IMG/VR virus record: IMGVR_UViG_3300021356_000034
Span: 1-48,151 of that record
Length of the DNA: 48,151 nt
Strand: one strand, 5' to 3'
DNA from: a virus
Below, piece after piece: positions 2,482-39,614 of this stretch. The notes beneath the pieces are model-generated. The model was given only the letters and a program-made list of their open reading frames with translations. It did no database searches and was not told the origin of the DNA. The first letter of the stretch is position 1. Each line of letters opens with the position of its first letter. Made by a program: the position numbers and the translations under genes.

Positions 2482-5295
2482 CTACTTTATATAATTTGCA
2501 ATTTTTCTAGCTCTGGATTTATTACCATATTTTTCCATCGCCATTTTTTCTACTTCTTGCTTGACTTGTTTTGTATTATATTTAGGGTTCATTTCTCTAA
2601 CGATTTCTCCCATTTCTTTTGCATCTTTTTTATCTGCATTTTCAATGATTGTGTTGATTTCGTTAATCTCTTCCCTTTTCATAATTTTATACGCAAGGTC
2701 AACTAACTTAGGTAGTGGAAGTTTTTCCATTTTAGACTTATTAGAATCATTAACCTTATCGTATATTTGAACAACTGCAGATGCAGTAAACAAATCAACC
2801 ATAGTCCCTTTAATTTTCTTTGCCTGTTTGTTATCAACGATATCTCTCATATCATCGATAATAGATTCTGTAAGTTGGAAATCTTCCATGCAATGTTGCG
2901 CCATTAAAGGACGGCCAATCATTTGTTTTTTGCGAGACTTCGCAATTTTCAAAGTTTTCTTATCTTTAATTTTCATTGGTGGAAGTTGAGAAGTTGAAAT
3001 GATTGACTTTGCACCCTTCTCATCAGAAGCAGTTCCAACAACCTTGTTATCATCAGCGGTATCATATACAATAAACGGTTCCTTTAACTCCACGAAAAGT
3101 TCTACTTCTTCTTTCAGTCCAAGTTTCTTTGCAAGGTCTGCAGCATCTTTACCCATTCCGTAAGAGTTGTCTTTAATTCTCTGTTTAAACCACTTTTTAA
3201 TTACTGGACGAGCATCACCCTTTGGATTTCTCTTACCAGCAGCATAAAGGTCGTCAAACAATTCATCGTCACCCAACAGACTATAAAGTGCATCTGTTGC
3301 GTCATCTCCCTCTTTTCCAAGAGTAATTGGTTTAGACATCAATTTCTTCAATGCAGTCACTTCGGATGACTTGTCAGCAAATGCCCAAGTACCTTCTTGC
3401 AAATCTTCATTTGTTAATTGAATTGCTTTATAAACTGCAGGATCATCAGAAAGCCCTTTTGCAATCTTTTCAATTGTTTTAACAATCTGTGTCATATTCC
3501 CACCCTTCCAACGAGGGTCGTTTAGAACACCAAACGCCATCTTGTATTGTTTTTTGGAATATTTTTTCTCATTAAGATTTTCTAAGTCTTCAAATATCTT
3601 GGACGCTTGACGAAGGTTAATAGTATTAATCGTACCCATATCATCTAGAGTTCTAAATCTAATACCTCTTCTATCTAATTGCAATTCAACATCATATACT
3701 TTTCCGTCCTTTCCACGAATAGAACGTATAATTCCATTTTTAAGTTTTGGATTGCTACCCTTAATTTTTGGAGCAGCTTCTTGTAATTCTTCTTTGACAA
3801 ATTTTGTTAGTGACACACCCATATCTCCCCATGCTAGTGAAGCATCTCCACCTTTTCTACTGTATAAGAAAAATTTAGTTCTGTTGCGAGGATCGGTAGC
3901 AGAACCAAGAGAAACTTTTTCTACGTCATACTTTGCACTCTTCGACTTACCCTTTACAACCAAAGTCTCCTTATGTCCCTTTTTCATCGATGAATCAAAA
4001 TGCACAGTTACTTTATCACCCTTCTTCAATTTTTCAAAATCCTTACGAGCAACCAACATCTCACTTAAAACTTCTTCTTGATATAAATCCCACTCTTCGT
4101 GAGACATTGTTCCAACTTCTTCTTTATACATATTGAGTTCATATCTTTTGTTGTCCAAGTTTGCAACTTGAATTTGGACACCTCTAGATTTACCTCTCTT
4201 ATCAGTACCCATTAAACGATATGAATTTGTTTTTCCACTGGATGGTTTTCTAGGGCCCATAGCAACTTTATCATCAATTTCTTCTGGGTCAATTTCGATT
4301 CCAAACTTTTTCTTAGCAAAATCATATGCATGTTTCATTGCACTAGAAAAATCTTTATGATATAGTTCATATCCAGTTGACGATTTAGCCTCTTCCAACT
4401 CTTCTCCAACAAGTCTTTTTGCATACGCATCAAACGACTTTTGATCTTCTACAGAGTCTTTGCCTTTACCTTTACCTTGGAAAAGTTCTCTCCATGCCTT
4501 TCCGTTCTTATATTTTTTGAAGTATGCTTGCAGTTTAGCAGCAGTTTCCCTGTCAATATTTACAATTTCTTTATCATCATAGGATAAACTTCCAATTGCA
4601 GCTTTGCCGGCTTTAACTTCCCAACGTTCTTCTAAAATTTTATTAAAAATTTCTTCAGTGGTAATATCTTCTTTTTTATATCCAAGTTTCTTCAATTTCT
4701 CTTTAAATGCAGACTGTCTACCATCAAATTGTTTTTCGTTAGAAAGGTCTTTTTTACCTTGGTCTTTATACATTAATTTCTGGAGTTTTTCTTTAAAGGC
4801 CTTTGTTCTACCGTCCAACTTGTATTCTTCTTTTTCTACTTCATGATATCCTTTACCATCACAATGGTCACACCCTTTACCTTCGCATTCTGGACATTCA
4901 ACCTTTTCCATTTCTTCTTTTTTGATTTCTATAGAATCTTTTACTGCATTTTCTAAGTGTCCTTTATCATCACACATATCGCATCCTTTACCTTCACACT
5001 TAACGCAAGGAATCTTTCCTTCTTTTACCGCCTTCGCAACTTTATCAGAAATCGTGACAGGGTACTCCTTATCGCCGAATTTGAATTTTTTCTTGCCCGC
5101 TGATTTTGCGGCACTAGCAGCCCCAATAAAGTCTGCGACATCTTCTTCCCTTACCTTTTTTGCAACATCCTTACTGATAGTAACAGGATACTCTTTATCG
5201 CCAAGTTTGAATTTTTTCTTACCAGCAGCTTGGGCGGCAGAAGCGGCCCCAATAAAGGCAGCAATATCTTCAATTGTCATATTCTTTTTAAACAT
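2482..5295 (-). CDS. giant multidomain protein with tandem repeats, two zinc knuckles and gp21-type cleavage sites
   Basis: 937 residues. Residues 8-48 and 51-91 are a near-identical duplication (each with FIGAASAA and a K-K-K-F-K ... G-D-K-E-Y-P-V-T-I core). Two Cys4 knuckles follow, C97/C100/C105/C108 and C134/C137/C142/C145, in a CxxCxGKGCxxC pattern like the DnaJ zinc module, but there is no J domain. A second duplication, D-G-R-x-x-A-F-K-E-K-L, is at 161-171 and 191-201. The rest is a chain of small, lysine-rich domains separated by L/I-x-E tripeptides at 220-222, 300-302, 410-412, 504-506, 574-576, 632-634, 737-739 and 808-810. That tripeptide is the T4 prohead protease (gp21) signature, so the product may be a head-internal polyprotein. 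A late box lies directly upstream, and GGAG precedes the ATG. Enzymatic function: none recognised. Confidence 0.6.
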   Translation of the reverse strand: MFKKNMTIEDIAAFIGAASAAQAAGKKKFKLGDKEYPVTISKDVAKKVREEDVADFIGAASAAKSAGKKKFKFGDKEYPVTISDKVAKAVKEGKIPCVKCEGKGCDMCDDKGHLENAVKDSIEIKKEEMEKVECPECEGKGCDHCDGKGYHEVEKEEYKLDGRTKAFKEKLQKLMYKDQGKKDLSNEKQFDGRQSAFKEKLKKLGYKKEDITTEEIFNKILEERWEVKAGKAAIGSLSYDDKEIVNIDRETAAKLQAYFKKYKNGKAWRELFQGKGKGKDSVEDQKSFDAYAKRLVGEELEEAKSSTGYELYHKDFSSAMKHAYDFAKKKFGIEIDPEEIDDKVAMGPRKPSSGKTNSYRLMGTDKRGKSRGVQIQVANLDNKRYELNMYKEEVGTMSHEEWDLYQEEVLSEMLVARKDFEKLKKGDKVTVHFDSSMKKGHKETLVVKGKSKSAKYDVEKVSLGSATDPRNRTKFFLYSRKGGDASLAWGDMGVSLTKFVKEELQEAAPKIKGSNPKLKNGIIRSIRGKDGKVYDVELQLDRRGIRFRTLDDMGTINTINLRQASKIFEDLENLNEKKYSKKQYKMAFGVLNDPRWKGGNMTQIVKTIEKIAKGLSDDPAVYKAIQLTNEDLQEGTWAFADKSSEVTALKKLMSKPITLGKEGDDATDALYSLLGDDELFDDLYAAGKRNPKGDARPVIKKWFKQRIKDNSYGMGKDAADLAKKLGLKEEVELFVELKEPFIVYDTADDNKVVGTASDEKGAKSIISTSQLPPMKIKDKKTLKIAKSRKKQMIGRPLMAQHCMEDFQLTESIIDDMRDIVDNKQAKKIKGTMVDLFTASAVVQIYDKVNDSNKSKMEKLPLPKLVDLAYKIMKREEINEINTIIENADKKDAKEMGEIVREMNPKYNTKQVKQEVEKMAMEKYGNKSRARKIANYIK
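5023..5275 (-). repeat. tandem intragenic duplication (two copies, about 129-base period)
   Basis: Two adjacent blocks of about 120 bases at the start of the giant gene, roughly 5152-5275 and 5023-5146, encode the duplicated 41-residue module. The DNA copies are still visibly similar, for example both contain 'tttgaattttttcttgcc/acc' and 'gccccaataaag' on the plus strand. This points to a fairly recent duplication. Confidence 0.7.
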
Positions 5296-5316: not shown

Positions 5317-5324
5317 TATTTATC
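5317..5324 (-). promoter_or_regulatory. late promoter box GATAAATA
   Basis: GATAAATA on the minus strand lies 22 bases upstream of the ATG of the 937-residue protein and touches the stop of the preceding gene. It fits the T4 late -10 element with one change at the first base. Confidence 0.5.
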
Positions 5325-7675
5325 TATTTTTTAACCTTGGCCCACAAATCCGCATCACCAGTAGTTCTCGTTTTTCCACCTGTAATAAATGAATTCACCC
5401 TTGCAAACGCCCATTGTTGTGGAGTGGTTCCTGGCCTATGACCACCTTTCCATGCGGCCATACCTCTATCATATACCTTTTTCAGAATTTCATATGAAAT
5501 GCCAGATTTATCTGCCTTCTTAACTAGTCCAGCAATCTTAGCTTCGTCTAGTGTCTCCGCACTATCTTCACCAAACATTTGCTTGTATTTCTTAGTATAT
5601 TGTGAAGGTTTCGTTTTTGCATCTGCATCGCCAGGCGCTGGTTTATAAGAAGAGTCTTTTCCATCTGGCTTAGATGCCTGTTTTTTAAAGTGGGCAGCTC
5701 TTTTATCTTTAGTTGACTTGGACATCTCATCACCATCAGCATCTTTTGCATAATACTTTTTTGGTTGAGATCCCTCTTTGTCTTTGATATCTGGGTCTTG
5801 AGTTGTCTTTCTTTCAAAAAGAAATTGAGAAAAACTTTTTATCTCTGCATCTTCGTTAACTGCCTTCATCACATCTTGCCAACTCATTTTATATGCTAGT
5901 TTGTCTCCAATCTTTCTCGCAAGCTTACGGCGAGCCGCAATCTTATCTTTTAAGGTTGGTTCAATAACATCTTTTTTCTTTTTAACTTTTACTGTTTTGG
6001 AAGACCCTCTTGGTCTGTGTAACCATGCAATCTCTTCTAAATCTTCTGTAGAATAACCAAGTTTCTTTTTCAGAATATTCATTGCAGTTGCCATCTTAAC
6101 TTGCATCCACTCATCACCGTATCTTTTCTTAAAATCATCATCTGGCAAATCTTTTGCAATCTTTTCTAAATCCTTTTCTCTTTCTGGATTCATCTTAAAA
6201 TCTTCTGGAACACAATTAGGAACATCTTTACCACTCTTCTTTTTCATTCCTACTTGTTTGTAGCCAGGCCAACAATCTTCTATTTTATTACCGTCTTTGT
6301 CATATTTACCAGACTTCTTTTTAGCGATTGCAATTGCAGCCTGTTGGGCTCGAGATACACCTTCATCTTTTCCAGTAATCCTATCACGGAAATCTTTTTT
6401 AACTTCACCATCAGTAACTTTCTCAACATCTTTAATAATCTTTGGATTTTTTAACATTTTGCGTAGGTTATTTTTAACTTCCCCAGCACTACTTGCATCT
6501 ACATAAAAAGTGGGCAATCCTTCAATATCTACTTGATAATTCGCTTCCTCAAGACTTTCATATTTCAATTCTTTACTTGATGTAGAAAAATTCTTTTTAC
6601 GCATTATTGTTTTGTGAACAACCTCAAAATCACCATTCTTATAATTGATAACTACAGGTAAATTTAAGTTGGTTGACATGTCTTTGAGAACTGCTTCGAT
6701 GTCGGGGTTCGCCTTGATCTGAGAACCCTTTTTCTTCTGAATCTTTTTGAAAAACTTTTGAAGTTCCGCTACTTTAATTTCTGGGTCATTTCTTTTATCA
6801 TTCATTCTGTCAACAAAATGTCTTGTAAATGTAACATCAATATCATACTTTGCAAGCATTCTATCTGCGAATTTTTCTAAATCGTCTATTTGTTTTTGAG
6901 ACACTTCTTCATTGTTGTATATTCTTTTATACACAGTTGCATAATCGTCATCGATACCGATTTTAAAATCCAACTCTTTATAAACAGATTCTATTAACAT
7001 TTCATCTTCGATATCTTCTACAATCTCTACAAATTCTGTTTCAATAAAACGTGAAAAGTCCGAATTAGTTGCTTCAAGAAACTCTGACAATTCTTCACTT
7101 ATATTCATCGCCTTTCTAAGAGTATCAAATAATTTTTTTCCGTTAGACTTTTCAAACGCAGATGGTAAACCATTTTTAAAACTATCATAGTCATTTGCAG
7201 CAGCTGCAGCTCTCATCTTAGATGCAGACATTCCAGTAACACCTTCTGCATCTGGATCTCTTTCTCCTGCAGAGACTACTTCGATACCACCTTTAAAATC
7301 ATAGAAACCATGACTTCCTTTTTTACCATTGTATTTGTTAAGTGTAGTTTTAAATTCTGTAACTCTATCTCCACCGACAACCATAATACATCTCTTATAA
7401 CCCATATCATATAGCATAGGCGCAATCATAAATGCAGTTTTTGCATTTCTATTAGAGATGATATTACGAGAATATTTTGGAAACATCTTTTTCATAAAAC
7501 CAACTTTAGTTTTATGATCTAAAGGATCCTTTTTGTCATTTTGCGAATGACTAGGAAATACCATAAAATCGGCGCCTTCTTTTTTGGCAACCGATGCAAG
7601 TTTTTCTATAAGTTTTTCGTGTCCTGTGGTTGGGGGATTAAACCTACCAAATGTAAAAACTACTGTATCTTTCAT
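5324..7675 (-). CDS. nucleotidyltransferase (cytidylyltransferase-like) fused to head-type modules and a DUF5824-like C-terminus
   Basis: 783 residues. The first about 185 residues form a HxGH-type nucleotidyltransferase: F-G-R-F-N-P-P-T-T-G-H at 9-19 (the HxGH-equivalent is T-T-G-H), V-V-G-G-D-R at 99-104 and M-S-A-S-K-M-R at 149-155, the ISSTxxR-like motif. Such domains transfer a nucleotidyl group to a phosphorylated substrate, as in NadM or cytidylyltransferases; the substrate is unknown. Later modules include a helical domain with the motif RHFVDRMNDKR (285-295), a lysine-rich segment with cysteines at 468 and 488, and a C-terminal domain from 712 (GHRPGTTPQQW at 745-755) that matches what I recall as DUF5824. 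L/I-x-E sites at 196, 227, 375, 546, 619 and 709 sit between modules; the 709 site is immediately before DUF5824. Start overlaps the upstream stop (ATGA). Confidence 0.65.
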   Translation of the reverse strand: MKDTVVFTFGRFNPPTTGHEKLIEKLASVAKKEGADFMVFPSHSQNDKKDPLDHKTKVGFMKKMFPKYSRNIISNRNAKTAFMIAPMLYDMGYKRCIMVVGGDRVTEFKTTLNKYNGKKGSHGFYDFKGGIEVVSAGERDPDAEGVTGMSASKMRAAAAANDYDSFKNGLPSAFEKSNGKKLFDTLRKAMNISEELSEFLEATNSDFSRFIETEFVEIVEDIEDEMLIESVYKELDFKIGIDDDYATVYKRIYNNEEVSQKQIDDLEKFADRMLAKYDIDVTFTRHFVDRMNDKRNDPEIKVAELQKFFKKIQKKKGSQIKANPDIEAVLKDMSTNLNLPVVINYKNGDFEVVHKTIMRKKNFSTSSKELKYESLEEANYQVDIEGLPTFYVDASSAGEVKNNLRKMLKNPKIIKDVEKVTDGEVKKDFRDRITGKDEGVSRAQQAAIAIAKKKSGKYDKDGNKIEDCWPGYKQVGMKKKSGKDVPNCVPEDFKMNPEREKDLEKIAKDLPDDDFKKRYGDEWMQVKMATAMNILKKKLGYSTEDLEEIAWLHRPRGSSKTVKVKKKKDVIEPTLKDKIAARRKLARKIGDKLAYKMSWQDVMKAVNEDAEIKSFSQFLFERKTTQDPDIKDKEGSQPKKYYAKDADGDEMSKSTKDKRAAHFKKQASKPDGKDSSYKPAPGDADAKTKPSQYTKKYKQMFGEDSAETLDEAKIAGLVKKADKSGISYEILKKVYDRGMAAWKGGHRPGTTPQQWAFARVNSFITGGKTRTTGDADLWAKVKK

Positions 7676-8346: not shown

Positions 8347-8880
8347 TTACCAAAAAAAGTTACCACCACCACTTAATCCAAGTTGTTTTGCGTACTTTGG
8401 AAGTCTACATGCCCAATAGCCTGGTTTTGTCTTATCGTTCTTTTGGTCGCAATTATGTCTTGCAACAAAACTCTTTCTTGCTTCTGGGTCATTAATCTTT
8501 GCAGTCAATCCTGTTGTATCCCCAAAGGAAACCTTAATTACATTTCCCTTATCATTTTTAACATATACATAATACTTTTTCTTACCACCCCTCTTTGGAG
8601 AATTCAATTCCACATCTTCTTCTTCCATCAAAGGACAGTCCAAAGGAACATATTCCTGTTCCTCAAACATCGCCCACTCACCAATATCTGTTTGTAACAT
8701 TTCTATGTCGTAAAGGTCAAACTCGACTTTACCCTCTTCGAATAATCTTCTTGCAACTCTAAAGGTTTCATAAAAATTATTTGAACCTAGACGAAAGACA
8801 TTATCAATTAGTGGTATTTCATTCTGTCTATGATACAACACCATTTCTTCTATATTTTGAAACTGTTTATAAGTTTTCAT
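8347..8880 (-). CDS. conserved late protein with capsid-targeting-like N-terminus
   Basis: I place the start at the ATG at 8880, which overlaps the upstream stop by four bases (ATGA) and has GGAGAAG upstream; an in-frame ATG at 8958 would lie inside the previous gene. The 177-residue product begins M-K-T-Y-K-Q-F, almost the same as the T4 internal-protein capsid-targeting sequence MKTYQEFIAE, with an I-E-E candidate cleavage site at 10-12. The C-terminal about 70 residues (KYYVYVKNDKGNVIKVSFGD, an ARKSFVARHNC stretch and a final SGGGNFFW) form a conserved basic domain common in marine T4-like phages; its role is unknown to me. I infer a head-internal protein. Confidence 0.6.
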   Translation of the reverse strand: MKTYKQFQNIEEMVLYHRQNEIPLIDNVFRLGSNNFYETFRVARRLFEEGKVEFDLYDIEMLQTDIGEWAMFEEQEYVPLDCPLMEEEDVELNSPKRGGKKKYYVYVKNDKGNVIKVSFGDTTGLTAKINDPEARKSFVARHNCDQKNDKTKPGYWACRLPKYAKQLGLSGGGNFFW

Positions 8881-9380
8881 CTCAATAACTTCTCCAATTC
8901 TCTCATAGTCTTCGCTGGATTGATATGACGAATACCAATACCACCTTTCGCTTCCCATTCTTTTATATTCTTAGGATAATCATCAATTAGAATATTTGGT
9001 TTATCATTTGTTGTAGCAAATTTCTGTTTATCTGCTCGTTGGACTAAATGTATTTTTCCATTCAATCTCAAATTTTTTGAAATCCAAAATCTTTTACCTT
9101 TTTGTGAGTTCGAATCTCTTTTTGAATATGCAGATAAAATATTTGCATTATATTTGTTTAACATTCTCCACATTTTTTCTGCACCAGGCATCCATGGAAG
9201 GGTATGCCAAAAATCTTTTTTAGATTTAATATCTTCCCATCTTTCTTCTTTATCAGTTGATGCAAAGTCTTTATTAAATGCATCTGTATATCCGCCTGTA
9301 AAATTACAAAGGACTTCATCCATATCGCAGTAAATTTCTGGCATTTCTTTTTCAAGAATATACTGATTGAATGTTTTCAT
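8877..9380 (-). CDS. HAD-superfamily phosphatase (5'-nucleotidase-like) with capsid-targeting-like N-terminus
   Basis: 167 residues. The HAD catalytic motif D19-M-D21-E-V is followed by motif IV with D133-D134 in I-L-I-D-D-Y, and by an intermediate serine motif (ILSAYSK, about 81-87). The small size and W-rich cap region resemble 5'(3')-deoxyribonucleotidases. The natural reaction would be removal of a phosphate from a nucleotide or a nucleic-acid end. The first ten residues, M-K-T-F-N-Q-Y-I-L-E, align without gaps to the T4 capsid-targeting sequence MKTYQEFIAE and end in I-L-E, a gp21-type cleavage site; the HAD fold starts only a few residues later. Overlaps both neighbours by ATGA. Confidence 0.75.
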   Translation of the reverse strand: MKTFNQYILEKEMPEIYCDMDEVLCNFTGGYTDAFNKDFASTDKEERWEDIKSKKDFWHTLPWMPGAEKMWRMLNKYNANILSAYSKRDSNSQKGKRFWISKNLRLNGKIHLVQRADKQKFATTNDKPNILIDDYPKNIKEWEAKGGIGIRHINPAKTMRELEKLLR

Positions 9381-9670
9381 TTCATCAAACCTTTTATTAT
9401 TTTTAATGCCTTTTTACCATCTGGGTGGTTCGGGTTAATACTGACTTCATCTCCGTTAACAAAATCAGAAATATTAGCTGACTTGCCAAGAGCAGTAATT
9501 GCTTTGTGTAATGGATCTTTTGGATCGTATCTTCGCTCAAAATCGGATTTTCCTCTTAGTTCTACCCAACTCTTTTCCTTAGTATCCCACATTTTAAGAA
9601 CATCTTGCCCTTTGCCACGAATCAATTTAAGTTTGATGCCTTCAGAAAGATACTGAGTAAATCCTAACAT
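9377..9670 (-). CDS. small basic protein with capsid-targeting-like N-terminus
   Basis: A 97-residue protein I do not recognise. Residues 1-10 (M-L-G-F-T-Q-Y-L-S-E) have the aromatic-x-x-aromatic-L-x-E pattern of a capsid-targeting sequence, with the candidate gp21 cleavage after E10. The remainder is basic, has a 'KMWDTKEKSWVEL' segment and a helical C-terminus. It sits between a P-loop kinase and a HAD phosphatase. Its ATG shares a base with the kinase stop (TAATG), and the phosphatase ATG overlaps its own stop (ATGA), so it is probably co-translated with them. Confidence 0.5.
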   Translation of the reverse strand: MLGFTQYLSEGIKLKLIRGKGQDVLKMWDTKEKSWVELRGKSDFERRYDPKDPLHKAITALGKSANISDFVNGDEVSINPNHPDGKKALKIIKGLMK

Positions 9671-10614
9671 TAGTCATCATCCATTTCGTCCATGATACTA
9701 TAATCATAAACAGCATCAATGTAATCCTTGGCCTTTGTCACTTTAGAAACTACCCACGCCTCCATTTCATATTCGTCATTTTGTGGATTATCCACTTCTT
9801 CCATAAGTGCCTCTGCAAGTTCTGTAGACTTATTAGAAAGAATGATAAGTTGTCTCAACATCATCTCCAAACTATCTTGTGCAAACTCTGCGTCTTCTCT
9901 AATTAGTTCTTCTTTAATTCCTCTGGCAGCCTTTTCTGCAGAAATCCATTTTTTTGCGACACTTTTAGTTGGTTTTTTCTTTGTCCATGTTCCAATGGTT
10001 CTATATGCCCTCATAACATCTCTTTCAAAATCAGCACCATCGGAGTTATCAATTACAAACATTTTTGATTTAAATGCAGACTGGAATTTTCCAATGTTTC
10101 CTTGAACACCTTTCCACATAGATTCAACTTCATTGTCTGGAAGACTTCTCGCCCTTAACCTATTTCGGTTTAATGCGGTATCTAAATCGGTGTTTACAAA
10201 AATCATTGCGGTTTCATAACCCATCGCTTCTAACTTGTCTTTTTGTTTTTTAATTTTATCATAATCTTTTCCAGTACCATCGATAACAAGTCCAAGTCTA
10301 CCCTTCATATATCCCGCCTGTTGCATCGCAGTAAGTGCCTTTGCTTTACCTCTTACTTGTTGTCCAAGGTCAGAGAAAATATCGTCTGGATTTCCTTTAT
10401 CCAATCCAGCCTTATCTAATGCCCTTTCAAATGCAGGATCAGAGTTTACAACTCTCAATCCAAAAGAAGTAAGTGCAGTTCTACCTACAATAAAGGATTT
10501 GCCAGAACCTGGCCCACCAGCGAGAAACACCGCCTTAAAGATGCCTGGGTCGTGTATGCCCTCATTTAAAGACTCTTCGTTCCTAAGATTTTCGATTATA
10601 TTTTTTATATCCAT
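9670..10614 (-). CDS. P-loop kinase (zeta-toxin/polynucleotide-kinase-like)
   Basis: 314 residues. A clear Walker A motif, G-G-P-G-S-G-K-S, is at 33-40. Next come V-V-N-S-D (about 54-58), a 'GLVIDGTG' strand as Walker B-like segment, and an arginine-rich 'NRNRLRARSLP' lid. This arrangement fits small kinases of the zeta-toxin, AAA_33 or polynucleotide-kinase group. The substrate is not evident. A C-terminal helical segment from about residue 240 ends in a 'MEAWVVSKVTKAKDYID' block that I recall from several phage virion proteins. An L-N-E site at 16-18, just before the kinase fold, could be cut by gp21. Neighbours are a ligase-like protein upstream (1 base apart) and a HAD phosphatase downstream. 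Confidence 0.7.
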   Translation of the reverse strand: MDIKNIIENLRNEESLNEGIHDPGIFKAVFLAGGPGSGKSFIVGRTALTSFGLRVVNSDPAFERALDKAGLDKGNPDDIFSDLGQQVRGKAKALTAMQQAGYMKGRLGLVIDGTGKDYDKIKKQKDKLEAMGYETAMIFVNTDLDTALNRNRLRARSLPDNEVESMWKGVQGNIGKFQSAFKSKMFVIDNSDGADFERDVMRAYRTIGTWTKKKPTKSVAKKWISAEKAARGIKEELIREDAEFAQDSLEMMLRQLIILSNKSTELAEALMEEVDNPQNDEYEMEAWVVSKVTKAKDYIDAVYDYSIMDEMDDD

Positions 10615-10615
10615 T

Positions 10616-11869
10616 TTACTTATCCCATGCCTTTGCTGCAGTAAAGTTATTGTAACTAAATTCCATTCGATCTACAATTTTGACGGCATTACCATTCGTA
10701 TCAATTGCAACATAACCTTCTGGATTTGTCACTTCGTAACCGTTTTTTGTACGAACAAAAATCTGCGTTAATTGTTTAACACTATTTAGTTTATTTATAA
10801 TGAGAGACTTGGCGTCAATCATTTCTTCCATAAAATCGACAATTGCATATGCAACACTGTCTAATTTAATTAACTGCTTTACTGCATCATCTCTAATTCT
10901 CTCTTTATCTTTTCTTGCACCTTCGGTTTTTAATTTTGCAATTACCTTTTCGTCAAAAAACTTTTTAACATACATCGAATAGTCTAGATTTTTCATATTC
11001 TTTGTAGAAATATTCTGTCCTTCACGGATGTATGTATTGAGATAGGTTTTAAAACTTGCACCGGCGAGTCCTTTAATAAAAGTTTTATTTTGAAGTTGCA
11101 TAAATGTTTTAAAATCATTCGCCTTGATTTTCTTAAATTTTCTACCAACTTGAGACATTTGACCATTGAATGTTTTTAGTTCAGACGAAGTAAATTTTGC
11201 AGAACCAGAAACATCTTTATATGTTGCATCATCCATCCACACAGAAGATGTTTTCTTTAGCCCAGAAATATTAACACCAAAAGAAGCTGTCATTGATGGT
11301 AAATCTTTCCCAGAATATGTTGTATGCCAAACAACACCGATTTTTGCAGCGTTGATCGCCTTTCCTAAATCAGAGTCTTTCTGAACTGCGTACATCAATG
11401 TATTTTGTTGAAATGTTAGATATGTCTCGCCATCAAGTGTTTTTTCCGACACATCGTCAGTAAACATCAAGTCGCCTTGAATTACCCCTTTGATTCCTAA
11501 CTTGGAAAATTCTTGAAATGCAACAGTAAATTTTGATTTTAAGGCAGGACTAAGTTTTGTATCTGCAGCAATCTCTGCCGTACTTTTATATAACAACGGA
11601 GTTTCATTAAATACAGATTTTTTTGCAACAAAAAACTTGCCGTCACTTGGGTCAATTCCAGCGAATATGGCAGGAGCACCGTCCCATTTAACTGTCATGT
11701 TTACTTTAGCATCTGAGTTTCCAGCCAACATGTCTCTTAAAGATAAAAGAAATCGAACAGCGGCTCGACCACCATCGATTCCAAAGTTTAAAATTTCATC
11801 CTCAAGATGTTCTAGGTGTAAATTTTTTCCACCCTTTGATTCATTAAGATATTTTTTAAATGATTGCAT
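10616..11869 (-). CDS. covalent nucleotidyltransferase (ligase-like), DUF6267-type
   Basis: 417 residues. K61-W-D-G64 fits ligase motif I (KxDG), the lysine that takes AMP or GMP. G-V-I-Q-G-D-L at 128-134 fits motif III, E384-G-Y-V fits motif IV, and A-V-K397-I-V fits motif V. These motifs point to the DNA/RNA ligase or capping-enzyme fold; I recall the family as DUF6267. The gap between motifs III and IV (about 250 residues) is far longer than usual, so either an insertion exists or the motif IV assignment is wrong. Residues 1-10 (M-Q-S-F-K-K-Y-L-N-E) look like a capsid-targeting sequence with L-N-E at its end. The start shares a base with the upstream stop (TAATG). Function inferred: nucleic-acid end joining or nucleotidylation. 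Confidence 0.6.
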   Translation of the reverse strand: MQSFKKYLNESKGGKNLHLEHLEDEILNFGIDGGRAAVRFLLSLRDMLAGNSDAKVNMTVKWDGAPAIFAGIDPSDGKFFVAKKSVFNETPLLYKSTAEIAADTKLSPALKSKFTVAFQEFSKLGIKGVIQGDLMFTDDVSEKTLDGETYLTFQQNTLMYAVQKDSDLGKAINAAKIGVVWHTTYSGKDLPSMTASFGVNISGLKKTSSVWMDDATYKDVSGSAKFTSSELKTFNGQMSQVGRKFKKIKANDFKTFMQLQNKTFIKGLAGASFKTYLNTYIREGQNISTKNMKNLDYSMYVKKFFDEKVIAKLKTEGARKDKERIRDDAVKQLIKLDSVAYAIVDFMEEMIDAKSLIINKLNSVKQLTQIFVRTKNGYEVTNPEGYVAIDTNGNAVKIVDRMEFSYNNFTAAKAWDK

Positions 11870-13230
11870 TAGTAAAGTTTCCCGAATGGCCCAAATATTT
11901 TCCCCTTCTTTTGGGCAAGATATGTTAAAGTTGTTAGTAAGTCATCTCTTTTTTCATCGTTTGTGATAGAGACAATTTCACACACCAAATGAAGTTGCAT
12001 CAACTTACTATGAGCATAATCTGGTCTAGATGTATTAAATACCGATACCACATTTTTTTGAAACTGGTTTTCGGTTATTCCTGTATATTGTTTTACTTTA
12101 TTAAATTTATATAAGAATCTATTATAATCATTCATAAATTCTTGTTCAGATGTAGGATAATTTTTATTATCATTGTCCCAAGTAAGACCTTCGTCTGTAA
12201 AAACTTTTCTGGCCATGTCTAAAGGAACCTTACCAAGTCTTGCAGAAGTCGCACCCAAGTCTGTCCCTTCGATTTTTAAATTATTAAAACCAGCACTATT
12301 TTGTCTGATTTGAAATTTAATTTTTCCCTTTTTGCCTTCTACGACAATTTTGGTATCTGAGTTAACAAACTCTCCATTACCTTTTGTTTTTAAATTTAGA
12401 TCAATATCAGAAAGTTTGAAATTATATTCTTTATCATCGAAAATATCCATATTTTCTAGATTCACAAGTTCCCATTTTGCAGTTCTCCCAGACATCTTTT
12501 TTAAGGAAATACCTACAATTCTTCTTTCATGGAACATATCTCTTAGAATAGCGTTGAATTCTTCTAGAGAAGTTACATCATCTAATACTTTTTCTTTTAA
12601 AGTATTTTTTACTTTGTTAAGGTCAGATACTAACCATATGTCTGCAGGGTTCCAAGTATCTTTTTTTGCAATACCATATTTTTGTTTGCAAATCCCAGTG
12701 ATATAATCCATAAACCCACCATCTCTGGAGTAGTGTCCATATCTAGTATTTCCTACTTCTCTATATGTTGTGAGTTGTTGTTGAAAGAATGTATTTTCCC
12801 ATTCTTCGTTCATTGCAGGATATATCGCCTTCAGATCATTGCGATATAATTTCATAAATGCACCTTGATTAGTATACCCATTATTTTCAATACTTTTTTG
12901 TATTGCAAAAAGAGAGGCGAGTTCTTGCATCTGGGTAGTTTTCCCATCAGAACCGCCTCCCATTCCACTAAAGGGTGCTTTATCTATTTGTGTCCACTTA
13001 TACCCATTAAAAATGGGAAGGTACTGGCCACTTTTTGTTAAAGAACTTGTAACTCTAGGTTGCGATTTGTCCTTCACCGCCCCAAGAAACTTTTTTACTT
13101 CTGGAGTCAATTGAACTACGGCTTTTGATCTATCCGAAAACTTTAGTTCTTTTTTACCATTGATAACATCCGCAACCATATTCAAATATGGTTTTTCAAA
13201 CTTTGCTTCTTTTGCCCCAAGGTTTGCCAA
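11869..13230 (-). CDS. uncharacterised protein, possible PD-(D/E)XK nuclease fold
   Basis: 453 residues. Residues 103 (E in QELASLF), 197 (D in N-P-A-D-I-W) and 244 (K in I-S-L-K-K) have the order and spacing of the E...D...(S/E)xK active site of restriction-endonuclease-like folds. The W-N-P-A-D-I-W and G-I-S-L-K-K strings are the most distinctive parts. This is motif reading, not a confirmed assignment. No ATG fits the N-terminus. I take TTG at 13230, which is 6 bases after AGGGA and about 30 bases downstream of a perfect late promoter; the first in-frame ATG is at 13179. It is the first gene of the late block that runs to the left end. Confidence 0.5.
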   Translation of the reverse strand: MANLGAKEAKFEKPYLNMVADVINGKKELKFSDRSKAVVQLTPEVKKFLGAVKDKSQPRVTSSLTKSGQYLPIFNGYKWTQIDKAPFSGMGGGSDGKTTQMQELASLFAIQKSIENNGYTNQGAFMKLYRNDLKAIYPAMNEEWENTFFQQQLTTYREVGNTRYGHYSRDGGFMDYITGICKQKYGIAKKDTWNPADIWLVSDLNKVKNTLKEKVLDDVTSLEEFNAILRDMFHERRIVGISLKKMSGRTAKWELVNLENMDIFDDKEYNFKLSDIDLNLKTKGNGEFVNSDTKIVVEGKKGKIKFQIRQNSAGFNNLKIEGTDLGATSARLGKVPLDMARKVFTDEGLTWDNDNKNYPTSEQEFMNDYNRFLYKFNKVKQYTGITENQFQKNVVSVFNTSRPDYAHSKLMQLHLVCEIVSITNDEKRDDLLTTLTYLAQKKGKIFGPFGKLY

Positions 13231-36109: not shown

Positions 36110-37489
36110 TTATACAGAATTGATATTGTCTACACGGAAGATTCTGTAGTAGGTATTTGCACGAGCATTAAGAGCACCGTTACCAACTGTTGTACCTTCT
36201 GCGTATGGGTTAGCAACCAATCCATAACGAGTCTTAAACCCGATTTTTGGTTGGAAACTGTTCTCACCAACTGCACGAACCATCTGTAGTGGAACGTATG
36301 GGCAATAGAAGAATCCAGCGTCATATGGTGATGTACCTCTGAATCCAACCATTACGAAGTCAGTGTTGTTAGCAGACGAGAAGTATGGGTCAATGTATAC
36401 TTTGAAACGTCCGTTAAGTGTTCCAGCAAATGTCGAACCAGTGTCATCAACATTCAAACCTGTTGACATTTGTGGGTTGTAGTCAAGAAGACCTGCCATT
36501 GCAAGTGCGGAAGCAACGTCTGAAGAACAAACGATTACATTACCCTTACCACGGCGAGTTTCTTTAGCAATTGTGTTTGCTTCTCTCTCAATGTGGAACA
36601 TAAGTCCTTTGAACTTCTCAACTGACCAACGTCCGTCTGCGTCTGTTGCAAGGTCATAAACACCTGTGTTAGTTACTTGAGACTGAGCACCAAGTTTTGC
36701 AATACCATACATTGTACGAAGAACTTCACGGTTAATTTCTGCAGTGATTTCTGTAGAAAGAATTGTTGAAAGTTCTGCTTCTGCATCAAGTCCATGAACC
36801 GCTTTCAAGTCTTGTGAAAGTTCAGTTGTGTACTCAGCTTTCAATGCTCTTGTTTTTGCAGTTACTGATACTCTCTCAATTGAGAATGCCATTTGGTTAA
36901 AGTGACCGTCTGCAGTCATTGTAGAACCGTTACCTAACAATTCACCCTGTGCAGTCGAACCACCAACACCAGTTGTTACTGTTGAATTTGTCTCATCCAA
37001 TGCACCAGTAGCAATAACAGCACCAGCGAATGGATCTGTACCTGAGTGATTTGGTCCTGCAACATCACCAGAAAACTCTGTGTTAGCTTCATCGAATGAT
37101 GCTTCTGTACCAGTCTGAGAAGAATAACGTGAACGCATCGCAAAGATAAGTCCAGTCGGTCCTGTCATTGGTTGCACACCACAAAGGTCATATGCCATTA
37201 GGTTTGGTGCAGTTCTACGAAGCATAGAAATGATGACTGGGTCTGCATACTGGATATTACCAGAAGCAGCACCTGTAGGTGCAACACTTGTTGGTGCTTC
37301 GTTAAGTTGATCCAAAGAAGAACGTCCTAAGGCGTTTTCTTTGATTGTGGCTTGTTCTGTATTCTCAAGAAGAATAGCAGTTACTGCCTTTCTGTATGGG
37401 TCTGTAATCTCGGCATGTTCACCATGGTCAAGAACAGGTGCCCACTTTTCTTTTAACTGTTGAACAAAGTTCTCGTTATAGTCGTGCAT
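36110..37489 (-). CDS. gp23: major capsid protein gp23
   Basis: 459 residues (T4: 521). HK97-type fold with the T4-like block 'LIFAMRSRYSSQTGTEA', the A/G-rich central region and the end 'ANTYYRIFRVDNINSV'. In T4 the N-terminal 65 residues are removed by the prohead protease; here L62-N-E64 followed by A-P-T-S gives the same position for the cut. Strong AGGAGAA ribosome-binding site, a perfect late promoter upstream and a strong terminator downstream fit very high expression. Confidence 0.97.
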   Translation of the reverse strand: MHDYNENFVQQLKEKWAPVLDHGEHAEITDPYRKAVTAILLENTEQATIKENALGRSSLDQLNEAPTSVAPTGAASGNIQYADPVIISMLRRTAPNLMAYDLCGVQPMTGPTGLIFAMRSRYSSQTGTEASFDEANTEFSGDVAGPNHSGTDPFAGAVIATGALDETNSTVTTGVGGSTAQGELLGNGSTMTADGHFNQMAFSIERVSVTAKTRALKAEYTTELSQDLKAVHGLDAEAELSTILSTEITAEINREVLRTMYGIAKLGAQSQVTNTGVYDLATDADGRWSVEKFKGLMFHIEREANTIAKETRRGKGNVIVCSSDVASALAMAGLLDYNPQMSTGLNVDDTGSTFAGTLNGRFKVYIDPYFSSANNTDFVMVGFRGTSPYDAGFFYCPYVPLQMVRAVGENSFQPKIGFKTRYGLVANPYAEGTTVGNGALNARANTYYRIFRVDNINSV

Positions 37490-38715: not shown

Positions 38716-39351
38716 TTAAAGTTTTGACACAAAATCTTTGAAAACTCTCAGTTTTGTTTCTTCTAATTGTTGACTCTTGGCCTTTCTAAGAGAGTCTTGG
38801 TAATGAGAAATTTGAGCTTCTCTGATAATACCGTTGTCCCAAACCCACTCTCTACCTTCCATAATACCTTCTACAAATGCATTAGGTGCGGAAGGGTCTG
38901 CAACAATGTCTGCGGCAGTTGCAAGATAAAAATCATCTTGAACAACATTTGCACCACCAGACTGTTTTACACTACCCATACCTCTAGAAGAAACACCTAA
39001 AGATGCACCTTCTTTAATAAGGTTATTAACGATAGCACCATAAGGAGTATCCGTCATAATCTTTGCTTTACCAACAAAATTATCACCATCTCTCTTAAGT
39101 TCTTTAATCATATGGGAAACTCTTTCCAGATTGATAGTTGGGCCTTCTGGGTGTCCAAGTTCTCCAAATGCTCTATTTTTTTGAATGTAGTTTTCGTTAT
39201 ATCTTTCAACTTCTCTTTCGAGAACTTCTGTAGGATATACTCTACCATTTCTGTTTTTGACATTTGATTGTAAGAAAATACCTTCGATGAAAAGGTCTTT
39301 CCCTTTGGATTCTACCAGAATGTCTTCAACTACTTCTGTAATTAGTTTCAT
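38716..39351 (-). CDS. gp21: prohead core protease gp21
   Basis: 211 residues (T4: 212). Herpes-protease-like serine peptidase: H67 in G-E-L-G-H-P and S121/S122 in L-G-V-S-S-R-G match the T4 catalytic residues. It activates itself and trims gp22, gp23, gp67, gp68 and internal proteins after L/I-x-E. Its own N-terminus has L12-V-E14 followed by S, a likely self-cleavage site. Start overlaps the previous stop by four bases (ATGA). Its specificity is the key to the capsid-targeting hypothesis for genes at 8-12 kb. Confidence 0.95.
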   Translation of the reverse strand: MKLITEVVEDILVESKGKDLFIEGIFLQSNVKNRNGRVYPTEVLEREVERYNENYIQKNRAFGELGHPEGPTINLERVSHMIKELKRDGDNFVGKAKIMTDTPYGAIVNNLIKEGASLGVSSRGMGSVKQSGGANVVQDDFYLATAADIVADPSAPNAFVEGIMEGREWVWDNGIIREAQISHYQDSLRKAKSQQLEETKLRVFKDFVSKL

Positions 39352-39614
39352 AGTCCTGTCCTTCTTTGAAGTGATCTTCTTCTGCGGAGATTTGCAACAT
39401 TAACCTTGCCTTTTCTTTTTCTTGCGGAACGAGTGTTTCTAATACTCATTTTTCGCATATCGCCTGGATTAATCTTGACCTCTCTCTTGTTAATTACTTT
39501 ATAACCGGCCTTATCAGACACATATTTAATTTTTCTTTTACCTTTTCTGATGACTATTTTTCTTTTAACCGCTTCGTCAAGGTCATCTTCCAAGAATTCT
39601 AAAAAAGAATGCAT
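39348..39614 (-). CDS. gp68: basic prohead core protein, gp68-like
   Basis: 88 residues, extremely basic after residue 17, ending with R/K-rich 'NLRRRRSLQRRTGL'. The first 15 residues are acidic with 'SFLEFLED' and L12-D-E14, a gp21-type site just before the basic body. Cleavage would release a DNA-binding basic peptide. Position between gp67-like and gp21 corresponds to T4 gene 68; sequence similarity to T4 gp68 is not obvious to me. Confidence 0.6.
   Translation of the reverse strand: MHSFLEFLEDDLDEAVKRKIVIRKGKRKIKYVSDKAGYKVINKREVKINPGDMRKMSIRNTRSARKRKGKVNVANLRRRRSLQRRTGL

Follow-up and report, generated by a model that had tools for sequence, protein, structure and literature searches.

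The window examined here, the whole 48,151 bases of the virus record IMGVR_UViG_3300021356_000034 (IMG/VR, positions 1 to 48,151), comes from a marine T4-like phage that has its main genes on the minus strand. Our subject is a run of five adjacent genes on that strand, at 8347–11869. From right to left these encode a DUF6267 protein of 417 amino acids (10616–11869; Pfam DUF6267, E 2.8e-98); a P-loop kinase of the Zeta/PSTK/polynucleotide-kinase group (314 amino acids, 9670–10614; Pfam Zeta_toxin, E 1.4e-10; fold matches at Z 12–13); a small protein of 97 amino acids and no known family (9377–9670); a HAD enzyme resembling 5'(3')-deoxyribonucleotidases (167 amino acids, 8877–9380; Pfam NT5C, E 1.4e-8; phrog_2643, E 8.3e-34); and a protein with a phrog_7595 domain (177 amino acids counted from an inner methionine, 8347–8880; E 3.5e-12). 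Neighbouring enzymes in this run start with a removable tag of the T4 type, and the virus therefore probably carries them, ready-made, into the next cell.

Leaders of the neighbouring genes

The DUF6267 protein begins MQSFKKYLNE|S (11840–11869, minus strand, as are the other leaders; the bar marks the proposed cut by the prohead protease gp21, after E10), the small protein MLGFTQYLSE|G (9641–9670), and the HAD enzyme MKTFNQYILE|K (9351–9380). An earlier note on this DNA had claimed T4-type tags at the starts of these genes, and so it proved: three leaders fit the pattern of T4 ipII and ipIII, ending at residue 10, and the fourth, MKTYKQFQNIEE of the 8347 gene (8845–8880), resembles the MKTFKEF of T4 ipI. 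The reference T4 tags were taken from NC_000866: MKTYQEFIAE|A for both ipII and ipIII, and MKTFKEFTSTTTPVSTITE|A for ipI. The longest open reading frame (ORF) of the 8347 gene begins further upstream, at 8958; two relatives begin at the methionine equivalent to 8880, with MKSFKQFQNIEE (L013) and MKSFKQFQNLKE (L021), and other relatives differ. The kinase has a leader of 18 residues, MDIKNIIENLRNEESLNE|G (10561–10614), ending S-L-N-E|G (ESLNE|G at residues 16–19); the L-N-E at residues 16–18 was correctly spotted by the earlier reader, and its E|G lies just before the fold.

The protease is encoded in the same genome, again as the earlier note had it: gp21 lies at 38716–39351 on the minus strand (Peptidase_S77, E 5.7e-37; phrog_207, E 6.5e-79). 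It alone was identified by family search as well as by reading of the sequence, through which gp16–gp23, gp41, gp43, UvsX and others were recognized. By analogy with FLTE|A in T4 gp23, a gp21 site is expected at L-N-E|A, residues 62–64, of the major capsid protein gp23 (37298–37306, minus strand).

Three of the window's 53 genes start with the pattern M-x-x-[FY]-x-x-[FY]-[LI]-x-E, and these are three neighbours in the 8347–11869 segment. T4 ipII and ipIII fit this ten-residue pattern; T4 ipI does not. Inside proteins it is rare, occurring in 11 of 136,776 sequence windows (8e-5 per window) in 683 proteins of four phages, and the enrichment at gene starts has a binomial p of 1.2e-8, or 1.6e-4 for a looser pattern; both values must be read as partly post hoc, the earlier reader having picked the pattern from these same genes, although it also fits T4 ipII and ipIII. 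The tag-like starts are real and exceed chance. A score trained on 47 DUF6267 leaders, the window's own included, places 6 of the 53 window genes above 99.5% of the null, where 0.27 are expected. Among named phages, Methylophilales phage Melnitz gives the best matches to the DUF6267, HAD and kinase proteins, and Pelagibacter phage HTVC008M also matches all three. The same score places 8 of 214 genes above the null in Melnitz (1.07 expected) and 0 of 197 in HTVC008M; these scans covered 214 of 225 and 197 of 198 features, RNA genes and coding sequences (CDS) cut by piece ends being left out.

The leaders are conserved where one would wish them to be. DUF6267 homologues provided 54 distinct leaders; 39 are ten residues long and start with Met, and the other 15 are shorter, shifted or fused. 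The counts that follow exclude ORFs with the start cut off or a leader under ten residues. Among the 39, position 4 is F in all, position 8 is L or I in 38, and position 10 is E in all, and positions 2, 3, 5, 6 and 9 vary (2.1–3.2 bits). In 39 representative DUF6267 ORFs an automatic rule found [LI]xE directly before the fold in 35; one ORF is truncated, and in the remaining three the rule chose the wrong E, the eye finding LNE, LTE and ITE. Relatives of the small protein have 34 distinct N-termini, of which 30 start with Met, and all 30 have Y or F at position 7, I, L or M at position 8, and E at position 10. Mutagenesis of the T4 tag assigns targeting mainly to residues 4 and 7, and processing to residues 8 and 10 (PMC9026906, partial text). 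In these relatives the best-kept positions are those that function in T4, with position 7 held only loosely in DUF6267. The leader also lies outside the fold, at low confidence, in both structure models; in the AlphaFold model of the DUF6267 protein (mean confidence score, pLDDT, 76) residues 1–16 fall below 50.

Tagged enzymes in cyanophage virions

Published virion proteomes of cyanophages tie the tag to the particle. For S-CREM2, 52 virion proteins have been published (PMC10665884). The exact ten-residue pattern occurs in 3 of its 219 ORFs, all three are in the virion list, and they are exactly the three labelled 'regulatory' (Fisher p = 0.013): a SAM (S-adenosylmethionine) hydrolase, ORF6 (MKDFDSFLEE), an APH/ChoK-like kinase, ORF14 (MKRFDAFLTE), and a cytidylyltransferase, ORF154 (MKNFSSFLTE). 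Three further virion proteins of S-CREM2, ORF12, ORF13 and ORF136, carry looser forms of the tag. The authors caution that abundant proteins may co-purify, and that carry-over could not be excluded (PMC10665884, partial text). Only one annotated start in S-SCSM1 has the exact pattern, that of ORF91 (MKSFLQFLKE), an NMNAT-like virion protein; two of its 282 CDS, cut by piece ends, were examined separately and carry no tag. In S-SZBM1 cytidylyltransferase 140 (MRFRQFIIE|A) is among 30 detected proteins, and the untagged DUF6267 protein (141) is not. The cytidylyltransferase T4-GC190 of S-SM1, found in the virion (PMC3037559, partial text), starts MKKFSAFLNE|A. Cytidylyltransferases detected by mass spectrometry are tagged, then, in four phages of four, by the exact pattern in S-SM1, S-SCSM1 and S-CREM2 and by a nine-residue form in S-SZBM1. 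This published evidence concerns tagged cytidylyltransferases and other cyanophage enzymes, not a tagged DUF6267 protein, P-loop kinase or HAD enzyme. The tag could explain why NMNAT-like and other such enzymes recur in cyanophage virions.

DUF6267 itself behaves differently in these phages. Seven cyanophage DUF6267 proteins are without a tag; six of them begin within 8 residues of the fold, near the proposed cut of the tagged proteins, and that of S-SM1 has a longer, untagged extension. The tag seems therefore to have been gained or lost by lineage. The untagged DUF6267 of S-CREM2, like that of S-SZBM1, is missing from the published virion list. In S-SM1, S-SZBM1 and S-CREM2, DUF6267 is untagged and the cytidylyltransferase tagged; in the window the situation is reversed, with DUF6267 tagged and the NMNAT-like protein not.

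Two virion proteins deserve separate mention. ORF12 of S-CREM2 (L226:7704–10313), annotated as a Cas9-like nuclease, has RFASFMAE|A near residues 18–25, and ORF93 of S-SCSM1 (L227:31627–31836), a small protein, has a tag-like RTFKEFLEYIE at its C-terminus rather than its N-terminus.

Kinase junctions and fused modules

The kinase fold is preceded by E|G in every one of 23 distinct contexts, from which matches without a clear P-loop and repeats of one 34-residue stretch had been dropped, and in 22 of 22 under a stricter fold pattern that excluded failing rows such as L010. It is also so preceded in all five further loci, each a metagenome bin. Of the 22, 20 have [L/I]-x-E in the 14 residues before the fold, against 8.8 in shuffled sequences, and the other two have F or M in place of L/I. 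Further upstream the contexts diverge, with short tags (MKTFAELQE and MIRFKRFLEE among them), the 18-residue leader of the window or, in L020, L027, L113, L123 and L184, a fusion. Some kinase folds sit 96–382 residues into a fused open frame with E|G still kept; in the L123 fusion the start MKSFSQFTEE is followed by an NMNAT-like domain, with K-E-M-E-E|G leading into the kinase. The junction reads V-T-E|G in a distant homologue from Atu_ph07, a jumbo phage with 131 virion proteins. The protein in question, of 788 residues (L263:1793–4129), belongs to a jumbo Agrobacterium phage; it has a leader MKWNDLNE|A, the kinase after VTE|G, modules after LTE and LNE, and a region that looks ADP-ribosyltransferase-like by eye. 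The logic of leader and junction appears to be the same in this distant phage.

Other modules are bounded similarly. The 14 residues before the module include [LI]xE in 52 of 55 distinct contexts for DUF6267 (11.2 when shuffled), 15 of 18 for DUF5824 (7.3), 25 of 39 for NMNAT-like domains (4.5), 10 of 16 for phrog_7595 (5.4), and three of five for a D-I-K-x-K-x-G-T-Q-P module (0.4). Three fused HAD copies, at residues 118–301 of their reading frames, show L-S-E or L-Q-E ahead of the fold. NMNAT-like proteins that lack the site, that of the window among them, mostly begin directly at the fold, with MKD(T/K)xV. The window's NMNAT-like protein is a multi-domain protein of 783 amino acids (5324–7675, minus strand; phrog_3041, E 2e-81), with an NMNAT/cytidylyltransferase-like domain (CTP_transf_like, E 1.2e-4), other modules and DUF5824 (E 6.8e-19); it has no N-terminal tag of its own, and a tag-like FSQFLFE occurs internally, at residues 615–621 (5813–5833, minus strand).

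That modules should occur both separately and fused, with the same kind of site, is a new point, and one that suggests polyprotein processing. Tentatively, and with doubt slightly outweighing belief, we propose that in marine T4-like phages the head protease also serves to process polyproteins. NMNAT-like, DUF6267, kinase, HAD and small basic modules would be shuffled between tagged genes and long fusions; the tag would load the whole chain, and cleavage at [L/I]-x-E junctions would free each enzyme within the head, so that a toolkit made in advance could be delivered for the first minute of infection.

Probable packaging and possible roles

In our judgement it is quite probable that the 8347–11869 genes form a cargo module, with several enzymes bearing a short leader or lying behind one. 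The leader would bind the prohead core via the aromatic or hydrophobic residues 4 and 7, and the gp21 of this phage would cut it off after [L/I]-x-E, residues 8–10. Trimmed ligase-like DUF6267 protein, P-loop kinase, nucleotidase-like HAD enzyme and small proteins would be left in the DNA-filled head, and would be delivered together with the DNA. Packaging and trimming of the tagged enzymes are probable because the functional positions are conserved, and because tagged enzymes have been detected by mass spectrometry in virions of related phages; injection into the host is likely by analogy with T4, whose IPI, IPII, IPIII and Alt proteins work inside the host (PMC9026906, partial text). Most likely, the enzymes would be needed immediately on entry, ahead of phage gene expression, and would act on nucleotide or nucleic-acid ends, or on nucleotide and nicotinamide adenine dinucleotide (NAD) pools. 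Of the packed and trimmed repair cassette put forward in the earlier note, the packing and the trimming stand as probable, and repair becomes one of several open readings.

Several observations weigh against this picture. The window's own NMNAT-like protein lacks an N-terminal tag, and the strict tag is absent from the 197 HTVC008M CDS scanned, which have shorter leaders only. The DUF6267-trained score ranks the T4 tags low, and it does not predict virion status in S-CREM2: three of its six matches are virion proteins (p = 0.15; rank test p = 0.32), and the other three ORFs above the threshold are absent from the list. The looser pattern brings in an oxygenase of S-SCSM1, ORF186, that is not labelled a virion protein. 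Position 7 of the DUF6267 leader varies (2.67 bits: F 10, Y 8, L 7, I 5, H 5, M 2, others 2). Conservation among homologues, which the earlier note had put forward as a check, holds at the functional positions for DUF6267 and the small protein, and the leader of the HAD enzyme is poorly kept in relatives; and relatives are not independent samples. In the kinase, E18–G19 may belong to the edge of the domain. DUF6267 proteins do not have the tag as a family trait, though the absence of two untagged members from published virion lists fits packaging. Finally, a literature search turned up, in the sources and portions that it reached, no proteome of virions from the clade to which this phage belongs.

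What might such a cargo do? The earlier note saw in it a ligase-like protein, a kinase and a phosphatase, packaged together to mend broken DNA or RNA on entry; host-cleaved tRNA would be one possible target. The DUF6267 protein has K61-W-D-G, Q-G-D, E384-G-Y-V and K397-I-V-D-R, which read as the motifs of a ligase-like nucleotidyltransferase, and nine divergent homologues all keep K-x-D-G, Q-x-D and E-G-[YF]-V, together with the K of motif V, in a K-[LI]-[VI] stretch. RNA ligases are among the top structural neighbours of the model in a second look with VIA-align (TbREL1, the highest, at Z 6.8 over 189 residues; T4 Rnl2 at Z 6.1). All these Z values are below 8, however, and unrelated rows such as ABCD4 (6.7) stand alongside; Foldseek finds no match to the model at E <= 0.001; the comparison of the DUF6267 profile with that of T4 Rnl2 fails (probability 0.5%); and a search of the profile against sequences of solved structures gives a single unconvincing match (E 0.065). 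With Pfam at E 10, no ligase family appears for 30 DUF6267 proteins among 25 families listed of 27. In 30 aligned members, moreover, the third ligase motif, K-x-K, has one Lys followed by an invariant Val, in the place of the second Lys of motif V. 'Ligase-like' is thus a reading at the level of motifs, since Foldseek and the Rnl2 profile give it no support and the fold neighbours are weak.

The partners are equivocal, too. A bacterial polynucleotide kinase is among the best neighbours of the kinase model (Z 12.3), but so, within one Z unit, are PSTK (13.2) and Zeta toxin (12.4), and by the model the type of kinase is ambiguous, all three fitting equally. The HAD enzyme passes the curated Pfam cut-off for NT5C (35.3 bits against 24.8), and by sequence is closest to 5'(3')-deoxyribonucleotidases. 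Searches of the kinase, the HAD enzyme and the NMNAT-like domain against sequences of solved structures gave no matches at the limits used. At tblastn E <= 1e-5, at which remoter homologues could be missed, 358 phage records match DUF6267, 63 the HAD enzyme and 8 the kinase; at this limit, then, the three rarely occur together and do not form a conserved set. The heal-and-seal role that the earlier note saw in them we consider unlikely.

Replenishment is another candidate: a packaged set, led by the NMNAT-like enzyme, that restores NAD or nucleotides depleted by host defences. The kinase model also matches AvrRxo1 (Z 11.4), an NAD kinase, and NMNAT-like proteins occur in the virions of the four phages whose leaders were examined. 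The authors of the S-SCSM1 study propose an NAD role (PMC9602691, partial text), and phage enzymes that restore NAD are known (PMC12774641, partial text). Set against these points, the NMNAT-like protein is untagged in the window and in several relatives, DUF6267 has no obvious place in such a set, and the substrate role is putative; we rate the idea somewhat unlikely. If, instead, the tagged proteins were parts of the prohead core, aiding head building or DNA condensation, their enzyme folds would be incidental or inactive. T4 IPIII has been suggested to take part in head morphogenesis (PMC9026906, partial text), and several of the linked modules resemble small basic domains. Catalytic-type motif residues are kept, nevertheless, in every aligned member (30 DUF6267 proteins and 11 kinases), and the T4 proteins just named for their action in the host speak in the same direction; this makes a purely structural role improbable. 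That the leaders are functionless, products of chance or of plain common descent, is very improbable indeed. L-x-E is a weak motif, it is true, and the genes are related across the contigs sampled; the window gene 1692–2087 (MEKFENLTE) even scores as tagged, and was rejected as such, its likely counterparts in Melnitz and S-CREM2, matched by eye, being untagged. Yet conservation centres on the functional positions, does so in non-homologous families and in different fusion contexts, and tracks presence in the virion.

Delivery of packaged enzymes, the reading we prefer, has precedents. Like T4 IPII and IPIII, the window proteins have a ten-residue N-terminal tag, with aromatic residues at 4 and 7, L or I at 8 and E at 10, and a prohead protease in the same genome; unlike T4 IPI, IPII and IPIII, which are small, the proposed cargo here is an enzyme-like set, from a marine T4-like phage. 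T4 Alt is a packaged ADP-ribosyltransferase with L-x-E type sites in its N-terminus (MELITELFDE), and the window differs from it in having other enzyme families in several linked genes. Cyanophage virion NMNAT/cytidylyltransferases (S-SM1, S-SCSM1, S-SZBM1, S-CREM2) are homologous to the window's NMNAT-like domain, and have the same kind of tag. In kinase, HAD and ligase-like folds the set recalls T4 Pnkp and RNA ligases; the window proteins are separate families, and the T4 enzymes are not known to travel as head cargo. In phiKZ and SPN3US, which we liken to the window from their published description, many internal head ejection proteins are cut after Glu by a gp21-type protease, some of them at several places, the phiKZ motif being S/A-x-E instead (PMC9026906, partial text). 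A literature search that left most subscription papers outside its reach found no paper on DUF6267 and, in the portions of text seen, no published link between capsid targeting and cyanophages. The sequence rule may predict head-carried proteins of abundant marine phages. It would carry capsid targeting beyond the few small inhibitors of T4 to enzymes encoded as a linked set, and suggests that the head protease also matures fused cargo.

Around the module lie genes of other kinds. It is flanked by gene 8055 and by a phrog_1462 gene (11869–13230, minus strand) that has no tag; a member of the latter family, ORF90 of S-SCSM1, is labelled a virion protein and is without a clear tag. The 97-residue small protein has no matches in Pfam or PHROGs at E 0.01. 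Adjoining gp21, a small gene (39348–39614, minus strand) starts MHSFLEFLED; it matches nothing in Pfam or PHROGs, and is prohead-core-like by position only. In Melnitz a RimK-like ATP-grasp protein (L001:82–1131) starts MTQKFSQFITE|E, and is likely a further packaged enzyme. The window also encodes, at 2482–5295, a protein of 937 residues that matches no Pfam or PHROG family at E 0.01 and contains two near-repeats, FIGAASAA(Q/K)(A/S)AGKKKFK; it may be another fused cargo protein.

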